64,000 nt of DNA from Opitutus sp. (GTDB taxonomy: Bacteria; Verrucomicrobiota; Verrucomicrobiia; Opitutales; Opitutaceae): NCBI GenBank assembly GCA_024998815.1, contig JACEUQ010000001.1:1116001-1180000 (forward strand), read 5' to 3'. The translations under genes and the position numbers were made by a program. The notes under the pieces were generated by a model, which was given only the letters and a program-made list of their open reading frames with translations, was not told the DNA's origin and searched no databases. Shown piece by piece: positions 12,561 through 60,692 of the stretch (the stretch's first letter is position 1; each line of letters opens with the position of its first letter).

Positions 12561-12587
12561 GTTTTAATTTAACATGTAGCCGATTGA

Positions 12588-12646
12588 AGTAGCGCGGACT
12601 TCCAGTCTGCTCCGAGAGAGAAGGCAGACTGGAAGTCTGCGCTACT
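12588..12646. repeat. Family A inverted repeat
   Basis: Arms gtagcgcggacttccagtct and, inverted, agactggaagtctgcgctac around a 10-base centre. It belongs to the family at 22085-22423, 35132-35256, 47530-47551, 49320-49408 and 52681-52802. Confidence 0.88.
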
Positions 12647-12674
12647 CCAAGCGCCCGCCGCTGCCACTAAAGCA

Positions 12675-13238: not shown

Positions 13239-13512
13239 CGTTCTCATTCGCTTAATCGCAATGCCTGTAAGGCATGGCCAAGATAGATTTAATCACCTCT
13301 AAATCAAGACCATGGGCGAGACGCCCATGCCACGTTACGAGCCGATGAAAGGGCGGGACGCCCAAGGCACTCGGCCCCGTCCGGACGTAGCATGGGCGTC
13401 CCGCCCATGGGATTGACGTGGCATGGGCGTCTCGCCCATGGGATTGCTGCTGTGTCGGTTATGGTACTTTTAGGAATGCCTTACAGGCATTGCGCTTAAT
13501 CGTTCTCGTTCG
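13239..13512. repeat. Long inverted repeat enclosing a family J element
   Basis: The outer arms read cgcttaatcgcaatgcctgt then aaggcat, and inverted atgccttacaggcattgcg then cttaatcg. They flank about 200 bases that contain the family J inverted repeat. Confidence 0.75.
13308..13445. repeat. Family J inverted repeat (gggcgagacgcccatgccac)
   Basis: Left arm catgggcgagacgcccatgc then cacg; right arm cgtggcatgggcgtctcgcc then catg. Within lies a second short pair (gggcgggacgccca / catgggcgtcccgcccatg). Related copies are at 14925-14987 inside hrpB and at 44061-44193. Confidence 0.85.
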
Positions 13513-13597: not shown

Positions 13598-16225
13598 TCA
13601 GCGCCACTCGTGGCGCGGGTAACGCCGCGAGAGTTCGGCTTTCACCTTCGGGTACATGTCGCGCCAAAAACTCGTCAGGTCGTCGGTGACCTGAATCGCG
13701 CGATGGTTGGGCGCGAGCACCTCAAACTTCACCGCCACCCGCCCGTGGGCGATGGTGAAGCGGCCATCGACGCCGAACAGTTCCTGAATCCGCGCGCTCA
13801 ATACCGGCGGGCCTTCCTTGTGGTAGGTCAGGCGCGCTTTGCGCCCGTTGCCCATCGTCAGTTTTTCCGGCAGGTAATCGTCGAGCACCGCGAGTTGCTC
13901 GGGGCGCAGCCAGTCGCGCAACGCCGGCATGACCGGCTTGTCCTTCAGCTCGCGCGCCCCGTAGCTGCCATAACACACCTGCTCGACCAACGTGGCGCGG
14001 TCGGCCTCGGTGATCGGCGTGACTTCCAGCTCGGGAAACCACTCGGCGAGGCGGTTCACCCGCACGATCCACTGGTCCACCGCCTCGTTCCACTCGGTGA
14101 GAATGATGTTACCCGCCAACACTTCGCGGGCCAGCAGCGCCGCCGCATCACTCGGCGGCGGTTCGTCGGCGGTGAGCTTCGACTCCAACACGAGGTCGCG
14201 AAAGCGCCGCTCACGCCGCGCGATCACCCGCCGCGCTGACTCATCATAGACCACGCCGACCGCGTCGCGGTAATCCGCCGGGAATAGCTCCTTGAGCCAC
14301 GCTTCCTCGATGGCGGTGCCGAGGGAGAGCAACACACTGACCTCGCCGCCGCGCCCCTCGACTTCGCTGATCTCGGCAGCCACCAGCAAGGCGGCCTTTT
14401 GCACCGCGCTTTCACGGGCGAGCATGCCGCGGCGGTTGTGCACCAAGTCGCAGCGCAGCGTGCCTGCATCGAGACGCTTGGCGAGCTGGTCGGAAAAGCC
14501 CGCCAGCACGCACTTGCGCACCGCCGTGCTGTCGAGGGCCGGCTCGCTCACGTCGAGGCCCTCCTTGGCGGCGATTTCCAAGAACTGTTTGAACAACGGC
14601 CCCACTTGGCGTGCGCCCTGGGCGTGGATGCCCAACCGCCGGCAGGCATCGACGGAGTAGCTGGCGTGTTCGGCGTAGCGCCACGCCCGCATCAGCAGGA
14701 AAAAGTCGCTCTCGGTTTCCTCGCCCAAAAGGTCGTCACGGGCTTCGTCGACATCCCGGGTTGCCCCACGCATCAGAAACGAGCGGCCCTGGGTCAGCGA
14801 GGCCATCAACGCCACCGTGCGCACGCAACCGCGCGCGTCCGCCTCCAGCAGCATGCGCGCATAACGCGGGTGCACCGGAAAGCGCAGCATGCGCCGGCCG
14901 GTCTCGGTGATCGACAGCGACGAAGTGGCATGGGCGTCCCGCCCATGGGCTTGGTCCGTGAATCGGGCGTCCCGCCCATGATTACGTCCGCCTACTCCTC
15001 CCCTTCCGAGCGCACCCAAATCAGCCAGCAACATCTCGGCGCGCTCGAGCGCCTTCGGCTCCGGCTTTTCCAGCCAGGGAAACGCCGCGATGTCGTCGAT
15101 GCCGCTGGCTTTGAGCGTCAGCACCACTTCGGACAGATCGAGGCGGCGCACCTCGGGCAACTCCTGCAACGCCCGCTGCGCATGCTCGCGCTCGGTCCAC
15201 AGGCGCACGCACACACCCGGCGCGGTGCGACCGGCACGACCGGCGCGTTGGTCGGCGCTGGCCTGGGAGACTTTTTCGATGAGCAGGGTGTTGATCCCGC
15301 GGTTGGGATCGAAGCGCGCGACGCGGGCCAGGCCGCAGTCGATCACCACGGTGACGCCGTCGATCGTCAGCGAGGTTTCCGCGACGTTGGTCGAGACGAT
15401 GATCTTGCGCTGCTCGTAGCGCGACACGGCGCGGTCCTGCTGCTCGGGCGGCAATTCGCCGTGCAGCGGGAAAATCACGAAGTCGCGCAGATCGCGCTGC
15501 ACCTGCAACGCCTGCAAGGTCCGGTTGATCTCGTAGGAGCCGGGCATGAACACCAAAAAGTCGCCCTCGGTTCGGTTGGCGATGCGGACGCACTCGCGGG
15601 CGGCCGCCTCCCACACTGGTTCTTGATCGAAGTTAACCGCCTTCGGCTGGTATTCGATGACCACCGGGAAACTGCGTCCTTGCGAAGTGAGTACGTCGCA
15701 CGGGGCGAGGTACGATTTTAACACCACGGCGTCGAGCGTCGCCGACATGACCACGATTTTCAGGTCGGGGCGGGTGGTTTGCTGGATCTGCAAAGCGCGC
15801 GCCAGCGAGATGTCACCGTACAGGTGCCGCTCGTGAAATTCGTCAAAAATGAGCGCCGAGATGCCCTTGAGCGTGGCGTCGAAGGACATCTGCCGCAGGA
15901 GAATTCCCTCGGTGACAAAGCGGATCTTGGTGCGCGCCGACACCCGCGATTCCAGGCGGATTTGGTAACCGACCTCTGCGCCGAGCTCGCAGCGCATCTC
16001 CTCGGCCACGCGTTTGGCCAACATGCGTGCGGCGAGCCGTCGCGGCTGGAGGACGACGACCTCGCCCTTTTCCAGAAACCCGTGGGCGTGGAGCATCTGT
16101 GGCAGCTGGGTGGATTTACCCGAGCCGGTGGGGGCCTGCACGATGATCCGGCCCTGCGCGCGCAGACTCGCCAGGAGGGCGGATTCGAGTTCGTAGATGG
16201 GAAGGTCGCGCGGAGAAACAGGCAT
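13598..16225 (-). CDS. hrpB: HrpB, DEAH-box ATP-dependent helicase
   Basis: An 875-residue RNA helicase-like protein of the HrpB branch. Motif I APTGSGKST (31-39), motif Ia LQPRRLAAR, motif II DEFH (128-131), motif III SATL and motif VI QRAGRAGR are all present, followed by the helicase-associated helical domain and the HrpB C-terminal domain ending near FWRDMYPKVKAELSRRYPRH. Its cellular role is poorly known. Unusually, residues about 413-433 (HGRDARFTDQAHGRDAHAT) are the translation of a family J palindromic repeat, sitting between LADLGALG and SITETGRRML where other HrpBs have a short loop. The frame is maintained. The gene is divergent from the esterase gene, 51 bp away. Confidence 0.93.
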   Translation of the reverse strand: MPVSPRDLPIYELESALLASLRAQGRIIVQAPTGSGKSTQLPQMLHAHGFLEKGEVVVLQPRRLAARMLAKRVAEEMRCELGAEVGYQIRLESRVSARTKIRFVTEGILLRQMSFDATLKGISALIFDEFHERHLYGDISLARALQIQQTTRPDLKIVVMSATLDAVVLKSYLAPCDVLTSQGRSFPVVIEYQPKAVNFDQEPVWEAAARECVRIANRTEGDFLVFMPGSYEINRTLQALQVQRDLRDFVIFPLHGELPPEQQDRAVSRYEQRKIIVSTNVAETSLTIDGVTVVIDCGLARVARFDPNRGINTLLIEKVSQASADQRAGRAGRTAPGVCVRLWTEREHAQRALQELPEVRRLDLSEVVLTLKASGIDDIAAFPWLEKPEPKALERAEMLLADLGALGRGGVGGRNHGRDARFTDQAHGRDAHATSSLSITETGRRMLRFPVHPRYARMLLEADARGCVRTVALMASLTQGRSFLMRGATRDVDEARDDLLGEETESDFFLLMRAWRYAEHASYSVDACRRLGIHAQGARQVGPLFKQFLEIAAKEGLDVSEPALDSTAVRKCVLAGFSDQLAKRLDAGTLRCDLVHNRRGMLARESAVQKAALLVAAEISEVEGRGGEVSVLLSLGTAIEEAWLKELFPADYRDAVGVVYDESARRVIARRERRFRDLVLESKLTADEPPPSDAAALLAREVLAGNIILTEWNEAVDQWIVRVNRLAEWFPELEVTPITEADRATLVEQVCYGSYGARELKDKPVMPALRDWLRPEQLAVLDDYLPEKLTMGNGRKARLTYHKEGPPVLSARIQELFGVDGRFTIAHGRVAVKFEVLAPNHRAIQVTDDLTSFWRDMYPKVKAELSRRYPRHEWR
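14925..14987. repeat. Family J repeat copy inside the hrpB reading frame
   Basis: A short copy (gtggcatgggcgtcccgccc then atggg, and later gggcgtcccgcccatgatta) of the element found between genes at 13308-13445 and 44061-44193. It adds about 21 codons to hrpB without a frameshift. Confidence 0.85.
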
Positions 16226-35094: not shown

Positions 35095-35131
35095 GAGGGC
35101 CGCGACCCAGCGGTAAAGTGCATGTCCGGAA

Positions 35132-35256
35132 AGTAGCGCAGACTTCCAGTCTGCTCTGGGGTTGCTGGACAGGGATTACGCGTAAAAGCAGACGCGGCGT
35201 CCACATTGGTTAACAATGACTTGCCGATTCAAGCAGACTGGAAGTCTGCGCTACTT
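35132..35256. repeat. Family A inverted repeat with a long centre
   Basis: Left arm agtagcgcagacttccagtc then tgctc; right arm agcagactggaagtctgcgc then tactt. The centre of about 75 bases differs from that of the other copies. Confidence 0.88.
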
Positions 35257-35353
35257 TGCGGAGGTGCGTCGTCCCCCCCCTTTTTCACACGCTTTTCCTG
35301 TGTTTTAGGACTTATGCGCTAAATTAACCGCGCTTTGTGTCGATAAGACACGC

Positions 35354-39620: not shown

Positions 39621-39730
39621 TTTTAACCACTAATGACCACTCATTTTCACTAATAGGGAAATACGCCGAATCAAACTGCCGAAAATTTCCGACCTCCGGA
39701 TTAGTGCCCCTTAGTGGCCATTAGTGGTTA
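39621..39730. repeat. Family H inverted repeat (taaccactaatgaccactca)
   Basis: Left arm ttaaccactaatgaccactc then attttcactaat; right arm attagtgccccttagtggcc then attagtggtta, inverted with mismatches. It lies between the thiolase and FadB-type genes. Confidence 0.75.
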
Positions 39731-44005: not shown

Positions 44006-44551
44006 CGATGCCGTTGATACCACCTCGACGACCGAGGCATAGAACCGAACCGTTTTTTACCGCTAATGGGCGAGACGCCCATGCCACGCCAAGCCCACGG
44101 GCGGGACGCCCGTGCCACGTCGGATGAGTCTGAGCGCCTTGGGCGTCCCGCCCCGTTTTTGGTTCGCAACGTGGCATGGGCGTCTCGCCCATAAGTTTGA
44201 CTTAAAAGTGGTTATGCCTGCGCGCCCCATGCCTTGCAGACATTGCGGTTAAGCCAGATCGATCCGACCTTCGTGTCATTTCGTGGGTTTCATGGGCACA
44301 TCTCTGCCGCTTAATTCACGAACCGCTGCGCGGGGCAAAATTTCGCTTGCTCACGCCGTGGGGTTTATAGAACTTGGCCGCCTGCGTTAGTGTCGCTCCG
44401 TCGGTTACGGGGTGGCACCACGACTGGTCTGGCATTCCGCCAGATTAGAACGGTGACGCCGGCAAACGCCGTGGTGCAAACCATGACGGGCGCGGGTGGC
44501 ACGGAACCCTCACCGGTTCCCTACAGTTGTGTAACTTATTCAAATAAAACC
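44006..44551. other. Spacer with a family J repeat and the rpsO leader
   Basis: No gene is recognised in these 546 bases. The first half holds a family J inverted repeat (44061-44193) and atgccttgcagacattgcgg at 44230, a variant of the outer repeat near 13473. The second half, about 44320-44551, is the rpsO upstream region and probably holds its promoter and leader (ttgctc at 44350 with tttata at 44363 is a weak candidate). Confidence 0.55.
44061..44193. repeat. Family J inverted repeat
   Basis: Left arm taatgggcgagacgcccatg then ccacgc; right arm acgtggcatgggcgtctcgc then ccat. It contains an inner pair (gggcgggacgcccgtgccacg... / ...cttgggcgtcccgcccc). It lies downstream of the acyl-CoA dehydrogenase gene. 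Confidence 0.83.
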
Positions 44552-44891: not shown

Positions 44892-45026
44892 AACGTTCAA
44901 CATCCAACATTGAACGTCCAACATCCAAAAAGCCTGCAGCGTTGAACGTTAGAAGTTAGTCATTGGACATTGAACATTGGTCATTGGTCCTTGGTCATTG
45001 GCCCTTGGTCATTGGCCATTGGTCCT
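44892..45026. repeat. Family E simple-repeat cluster between rpsO and pnp
   Basis: A chain of slightly varied units such as caacgttcaacatccaacat, tgaacgttagaagttagtca and ttggtcattggtccttggtc. The plus frame would translate as IGHWSLVIGPWSLAIGP but is repeat, not gene. It takes most of the space between the rpsO terminator and the pnp start. Confidence 0.8.
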
Positions 45027-45120
45027 TTCCCTCCCGCCCCCTCCCCTTTCAGCCGAACCTGCCGCGTGTCGCAGGCCGGCTTTTCTATCCGCGACGCGCA
45101 ACCGAAGTACGAAATAACAC

Positions 45121-49319: not shown

Positions 49320-49408
49320 AGTAGCGCAGACTTCCAGTCTGCTCGGAGTAAATAAGCAGACTGGAAGTCTGCGCTACTCACAATCAGCAGGCTGGAAGCC
49401 TGCGCTAC
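49320..49408. repeat. Family A element with an extra arm, inside the operon
   Basis: One left arm (gtagcgcagacttccagtct then gctc, 49321-49344), one right arm (49354-49377) and a further variant right arm gcaggctggaagcctgcgct (49386-49408). It fills most of the spacer between the 12S-like and 1.3S-like genes. Confidence 0.88.
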
Positions 49409-49439
49409 GCCGGTACGCGAGCGGATATAGTTTAACCAT

Positions 49440-52639: not shown

Positions 52640-52680
52640 AACGCTTAAGCGGTTTTTAAGGGTGAGCCGTAGCCGAAAAA

Positions 52681-52802
52681 GTAGCGCAGACTTCCAGTCT
52701 GCTCCGAAAAAAAACCAGCAGGCTGGAAGCCTGCGCTACGTCAGAACAGCAGGCTGGAAGCCTGCGCTACGTCAGAACAGCAGGCTGGAAGCCTGCGCTA
52801 CT
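52681..52802. repeat. Family A array: one left arm and three tandem right arms
   Basis: A left arm (gtagcgcagacttccagtct then gctcc) is followed by three right arms starting at 52717, 52748 and 52779, each agcaggctggaagcctgcgc then tac, with a 31-base period and gtcagaac joining them. It lies between mutB and meaB, inside the operon. Confidence 0.9.
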
Positions 52803-52848
52803 TTTTCGCTACTTCAGGCAAATATCGGCATGGATGATTTCCGTCCGC

Positions 52849-60371: not shown

Positions 60372-60692
60372 GCGGGCCCACCCTGTTCGCATCCCGCGTC
60401 CAGTCCCTGAGCGCACGCTCAGGGCCATGGAGTTTGGCCTCTGACTAGTCGAACGCAGATCAGCCGAATCCTTGAGCTCACGCTCAAGGCCACACTCTTC
60501 GCGAACACACTCCTTGTGGCCTTGAGCGTGAGCTCAAGGAGGGCGGGCCCCAATGGCCCGTTGGACCTGGGGTGCTTCCGCTCAACCCGTTCGCGGCCCT
60601 GAACCGAGAATGAGCCCAATAGACTGACCGTCTCACACAATCCCCTTTGCGTCCGGCCGACTTTGCGTTTCTTTGAGCGGCCCTTCGCAACC
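60372..60692. other. Gene-free spacer dominated by family B repeats
   Basis: Between the DUF2959 gene and the ABC ATPase gene. No gene is seen. It contains a degenerate family B arm (60405-60426) and a full family B inverted repeat (60470-60540); the last ~100 bases should hold the ATPase promoter. Confidence 0.65.
60470..60540. repeat. Family B inverted repeat, best-kept copy
   Basis: Left arm ccttgagctcacgctcaagg then ccacactc; right arm cttgtggccttgagcgtgag then ctcaagg. The arms are near-perfect inverted copies with about 15 bases between. Confidence 0.88.

Follow-up and report, generated by a model that had tools for sequence, protein, structure and literature searches.

In the hrpB helicase gene of an Opitutus sp. 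genome (GCA_024998815.1), a short DNA palindrome, here called family J, has been inserted without breaking the reading frame. The enzyme that probably moves this palindrome, a REP-associated tyrosine transposase (RAYT) with J on both sides, is itself encoded in the reading frame of another intact gene, an arrangement that recurs inside many conserved genes of other bacteria. The initial annotation had described a family J element, otherwise found between genes, as translated in a HrpB loop, and this observation is confirmed by our analysis. Its interpretation, that the segment resembles the in-frame palindromic elements of Rickettsia and that family J is or was mobile and is tolerated in proteins, is supported as regards insertion, mobility and presence in proteins, but it did not extend to the larger point that the transposase is also nested in frame in a host gene.

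The family J palindrome in hrpB

We analysed a window of 64,000 nucleotides (contig JACEUQ010000001.1, positions 1,116,001 to 1,180,000), to which the positions given below refer. The hrpB frame occupies 13598-16225 on the minus strand and encodes 875 residues with DEAD, Helicase_C, HA2_C and HrpB_C matches. It contains DLGALGRGGVGGRNHGRDARFTDQAHGRDAHATSSLSITETG, and the segment HGRDARFTDQAHGRDAHAT is encoded by two copies of the palindrome in the same orientation: a complete copy, CATGGGCGTCCCGCCCATG, at 14929-14947 (+) with its GTGG tag immediately before it (14925-14928), and a second, partly decayed copy at 14963-14980 (+). The segment lies between the helicase core and the C-terminal part: the best solved HrpB structure (6eud) aligns to residues 7-408 of our protein and again from residue 557. 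Further J copies form an intergenic cluster just downstream of the hrpB stop (13311-13440), in both orientations, and a second cluster at 44065-44193. These matches are not due to chance, since the window holds seven J-like sites at up to two mismatches against a mean of 0.13 in shuffled sequence, and the 17-base core has 37 forward and 40 reverse hits in the genome against none for the reversed control. The window also harbours other repeats: a second palindrome family with the classic GTAG tag (AGTAGCGCAGACTTCCAGTCTGCT), in inverted pairs and short tandems at 12581-12653, 35120-35267, 49320-49415 and 52674-52808, and short repeats of the TTGGTCATTGG / CTAATGACCACT type at 44956-45039 and 39624-39730.

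It had been specified in advance that conservation of the segment in HrpB of distant species, without the palindrome, would mark it as a normal loop. To establish whether this is the case we compared HrpB across 37 genomes, of which 29 matched, the own genome included. Of the 28 others, the site was readable in 25, and none of these has the HGRDA segment; conservation of this kind was thus not seen. Note that we retained hits with more than 40% identity or more than 600 aligned residues; the three genomes without a readable site are G001 (masked), G007 (truncated) and G006, where only a paralogue was found and removed by this cut-off. In a sister genome, G012, whose HrpB is 98% identical (94.9% with the gap counted), the site reads DLGALGGRHRSLTETG, so that the insert comprises 26 residues, or about 78 bp (14924-15001 on the minus strand, with exact ends ambiguous by a few bases). 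Of nine same-genus genomes with a readable site, G012 included, eight have a short loop such as the GGRHRSL of the sister and one, G004, has a longer, different one. At the DNA level, G017, a genome of another genus, has at the same place an inverted pair of a different REP with GTGG tags on the outside (CACGGGCTTCCAGCCCGTG), and G004 has a third palindrome that starts GGTAGGG and ends CCCTACC, so this HrpB junction has been hit about three times. The loop of G014 ends in KDAHAT and may be a remnant.

Family J is a REP. It is a short hairpin repeated in the genome and, oriented by its loop, it carries GTGG at the foot of the hairpin in 56 and GTAG in 4 of 73 cores, with another tetranucleotide in the remaining 13. 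A strict pattern finds 47 distinct sites in the own genome, many of them in clusters (36 forward and 38 reverse hits, since many sites match on both strands), 9 in the congener G008, 1 in G005 and none in the other ten of 12 congeners, the sister included. In the own genome J also lies in frame in unrelated proteins with Pfam matches: an HrpA-like helicase, a DsbH/DUF255 protein (locus L102, 1380-4079, minus strand) with four tandem J-containing units about 93 nt apart, PdxA, a histidine phosphatase, CheA and, near their ends, a few others; empty sites were examined only for HrpB and for the isochorismate synthase-like gene described below. The absence of stop codons from J is not special, given that 54% of shuffled sequences likewise lack stops in all six frames, and a design of J for reading through is therefore not supported.

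A J-flanked RAYT in another host frame

We next asked which enzyme might mobilise J. Of five Y1_Tnp hits in the genome, only one, L013 (G000:C2:275256-278417, G000 being the own genome), has J copies on both sides. It sits in the middle of a single open frame of 823 residues whose C-terminal part is Chorismate_bind and whose two ends align with isochorismate synthase-like proteins of relatives (we refer to the gene as MenF-like, by similarity). Most relatives have frames of about 470-540 residues. In the sister G012 the same enzyme is 97% and 95% identical on the two sides, there is no insert, and none of its four matches is a RAYT. In G017 the same linker holds another RAYT, 56% identical, flanked by the REP family that also sits in that genome's HrpB; thus two genera show the same pair of targets with different elements. 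A 26-nt perfect inverted repeat in the window, TCCTTGAGCTCACGCTCAAGGCCACA (60469-60540), has a similar counterpart beside the MenF-like gene, near 2860-3010 of L013. Note that G008 carries its nine strict J sites although no RAYT appears among its listed matches, a list that is not exhaustive.

In-frame RAYTs in other genomes

To establish whether this arrangement is more widespread, we searched 80 genomes of the family and 288 of the phylum with the RAYT alignment and obtained hits in 57 (E 1e-12, other Y1 groups included) and 95 (E 1e-25) genomes, respectively. Among the hits listed, open frames fall into one group near 200-300 residues and another from about 450 to 2175. From these lists we selected by hand 59 hits with frames of about 440 residues or more; we also took 14 RAYT hits of long and short frame, likewise selected by hand, from the earlier search that covered G012 and G008, and 20 of the short-frame hits, and added the best 80 of 527 relatives from named genomes. 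Frames exceed 400 residues in 65 cases of the first set, unclear ones included, and 420 residues in 46 of 81 RAYT ORFs at the 80 loci of named genomes; the latter is not an unbiased rate, as the seed alignment already held nested RAYTs. More generally, nested cases were identified by long open frames, which favours in-frame insertions, and out-of-frame insertions were sought only weakly: 3 of 73 free or unclear RAYTs have a spanning ORF in another frame, none host-like by eye.

Pfam searches of 81 frames place host domains around the transposase in LeuRS, ValRS (two sites), AlaRS (two sites), PriA, CarB, MetH, IspG (GcpE), XseA, HypF, Sua5, DnaE, mevalonate-diphosphate decarboxylase, a creatininase-like protein, B12 radical SAM proteins, glycosyltransferases, a DinG-like helicase, an MqnA-like protein, HsdR and Eco57I/MmeI-type restriction-modification enzymes. 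Several of these hosts are essential, although essentiality was not examined here. Counting a family with two stretches as split by the transposase, 44 of 81 frames have a Pfam match on each side, some of them resting on stretches below threshold. In the other 37, one side rests on similarity or visual inspection (for example MenF, FabZ and adenosine deaminase), the RAYT is at an end (as in the FumC-like L163 and the TatD fusion L164), or the case is unclear; one frame, L170, had no family at all. Named records with nested cases include, by title, Planctomycetota, Armatimonadetes, Hydrogenedentota, Chloroflexi, Bacteroidota and Gallionellaceae, whereas all eight acidobacterial RAYTs in the set are free-standing. 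Many loci are MAG contigs, but records without a MAG label include Rubritalea marina DSM 17716 (MetH, 1528 residues), Pontiella sulfatireligans F21(T) (radical SAM protein), Pontiellaceae bacterium B12227 and Chloroflexales bacterium ZM16-3. One host-embedded RAYT, L251, is cut by a stop, and in L187 (2773-5590) two RAYT ORFs lie side by side in different frames at the end of a longer frame.

Several features point to a mobile, intact unit. Hairpins with arms of at least 7 are found on both flanks in 81 of 89 nested cases but in only 8 of 58 control windows of the same genes, and the two flanks share a match of at least 14 nt in 69 of 89 cases against 1 of 58 controls (of the clear nested rows, those with too-short flanks were left out, and 58 had room for a control). 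The HUH motif and the catalytic Tyr are invariant in an alignment, A1, and are kept in 101 of 102 long-frame and 62 of 64 short-frame RAYTs. Here, we only considered RAYTs covering at least 150 of 194 model columns, so that the AlaRS cases L117, L136 and L137 enter neither these counts nor the tree; the 102 include nine unclear long frames and one duplicate (L291, identical to L149). pN/pS is 0.16-0.30 in 11 of 11 RAYT pairs, and dN/dS is 0.09-0.19 in the six pairs where it is finite, consistent with purifying selection. An ATG within 40 codons upstream is present in 26 of 102 long-frame compared to 46 of 64 short-frame RAYTs, so most nested ones seem to depend on host translation; independent initiation is not general but not excluded for those 26. 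In a structural model of a FabZ-RAYT case, the RAYT part is confidently predicted as a domain whose best PDB match is the REP-bound RAYT 4er8, whereas the FabZ part is poor, so that the model is not informative on the fusion as a whole.

On a FastTree tree of 165 RAYTs (the only tree method used), nested and free states need at least 23 changes (156 rows, with the nine unclear frames set apart), fewer than in shuffles (41-58) but far from a single origin. Host labels, which we assigned from Pfam and by eye, need 26 changes against 57-65 in shuffles (75 rows, 22 hosts). RAYTs thus often stay with a host gene, yet LeuRS (at least 4 changes), MenF (3) and one restriction-enzyme site (4) look to have been entered more than once, and some RAYTs seem to have moved between hosts (MqnA inside the CarB group, HypF inside the radical SAM group). 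Five LeuRS insertions fall at residues 479-494 of an empty homologue. Among 29 genomes searched around one of these, G359, 28 have LeuRS and only G359 itself has the RAYT, with no other LeuRS there at E 1e-40.

Interpretation and alternative explanations

The explanation we favour, at a probability of roughly 0.8, is that the HrpB segment is a REP dimer that was inserted into hrpB and reads through as a 26-residue addition to a linker, and that J is most likely mobilised in trans by the one J-flanked RAYT found in this genome. Sitting with its flanking REPs in the frame of the MenF-like gene, this RAYT would be made as part of that protein, as one case of a wider lifestyle in which REP-flanked RAYTs lodge in frame in conserved proteins. 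Our data demonstrate the anatomy, the continuous frames, the host domains around the RAYT, matching REPs at both flanks, conserved catalytic residues, purifying selection, empty sites in relatives (HrpB, MenF-like, LeuRS) and repeated use of one site by distant RAYTs. In contrast, we infer that the RAYT acts while fused to the host protein, that it moves J in trans, that the host protein still works, and that a conserved gene serves as a refuge because most damage to the element would also break the host gene; expression, activity and transposition data were lacking, and cleavage of single-stranded J was not assayed. Published work shows that a RAYT binds and cuts single-stranded REPs next to the tag and that, in one system, a GTGG tag shifts cutting to CC or CA (PMC8266576). 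In the view proposed here, such single-strand transposition would put REPs, REP pairs or the whole REP-RAYT-REP unit into genes, where copies would survive only if they keep the frame and lie in tolerant loops; once in an essential gene, the element would be shielded.

A bolder reading, which we consider somewhat more likely than not, is that there is a class of transposons that live as domains inside working proteins: the transposase would be translated mainly as part of the host protein, use conserved genes as expression platform and refuge, land repeatedly in the same tolerant loops, and scatter its REPs, some of them in frame, through the rest of the proteome. This would give REPs, whose spread has been hard to watch, a transposase whose expression is tied to host genes, and show that a mobile enzyme of about 190 residues can enter enzymes such as LeuRS, FabZ or MetH and be kept. 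That bears on how mobile elements avoid killing their hosts, on how protein domains are gained, and on annotation, since long Y1 proteins have been set aside as fusions or errors, while repeated insertion at one loop gives natural maps of insertion-tolerant sites.

REPs inside genes have been reported before. Di Nocera et al. 2013 (PMC3733652) describe GTAG-tagged REPs within genes, more than half of the inserts being dimers or groups that encode 20-30 residues, with most intragenic GTAG repeats in the verrucomicrobium Opitutus terrae, RNA helicases included, and REPs flanking RAYT genes (REPtrons). The HrpB insert adds to these, although the tag here is mainly GTGG, and what we saw described there are REPs rather than whole RAYT genes inside host frames. 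By motif alone, our RAYTs would belong to TnpA-REP subclass 2.4 or 2.7 (PMC6006769), with which they share NHVH, WQ and Y(I)xxNP motifs, a length near 194-213, GT[AG]G tags and REPs at both ends. That 2018 survey reports REPs inserted inside tnpA-REP genes without disrupting them, but discarded a few unexpectedly long proteins, whereas here the transposase gene itself lies inside a host reading frame. In the open-licence literature we searched, which leaves out subscription papers and preprints, we saw no report of RAYTs nested in frame in host genes, nor any paper with the encoded peptide words. Rickettsia palindromic elements are likewise inserted in frame into unrelated genes (PMC10969869, PMC3733652), but J is not one of them: the R. 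conorii elements are described as CGTC-ended and CGTC repeats as not associated with transposase genes (PMC3733652), whereas J has a GTGG tag and a J-flanked RAYT. Inteins and IStrons are also mobile elements living in conserved genes at low cost; here we saw neither an intein family in the 81 frames scanned nor an intron match in 16 nested loci, and tolerance would have to be at the level of the folded protein.

There are a number of alternative scenarios, all of which we consider unlikely. First, the nested element might be removed before it matters, by RNA splicing, protein splicing or ribosome bypassing. The insertions do lie inside conserved enzymes, and IStrons are a precedent for an IS made harmless by a group I intron (PMC4227781). 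However, 16 nested loci gave no Rfam match at gathering score, no intein family was found at E 1e-5 in the 81 frames scanned, and the frame runs on through both junctions, which splicing would not require. Bypassing was not tested. Second, the nested frames might be assembly chimeras, annotation errors or decaying host genes, as suggested by the many MAG contigs, the nine unclear frames, the stop in L251 and the exclusion of long TnpA-Y1 proteins as fusions or annotation errors by the 2018 survey. Against this, the own genome is in 3 contigs at 99.93% completeness, nested cases occur in the records without a MAG label, different genomes share sites, pN/pS is low in RAYT and host, and G359 has no other LeuRS hit. 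Third, the RAYTs might have been domesticated as functional domains of their hosts. Same-host RAYTs often cluster on the tree and are under purifying selection, but presence is patchy in close relatives (1 of 28 for LeuRS; absent from the 97% identical MenF-like gene), there are over two dozen kinds of host, and one site can show several entries. Finally, that the HrpB segment is an ordinary variable linker with an incidental palindrome match can be all but dismissed: other genomes (for example G004, G015, G016, G019 and G022) do have extra residues at this loop without a J palindrome, but the own genome has the exact J palindrome with its tag, the site is empty in the close sister and same-genus relatives, and G017 and G004 carry recognisable palindromes of other families at the same place.
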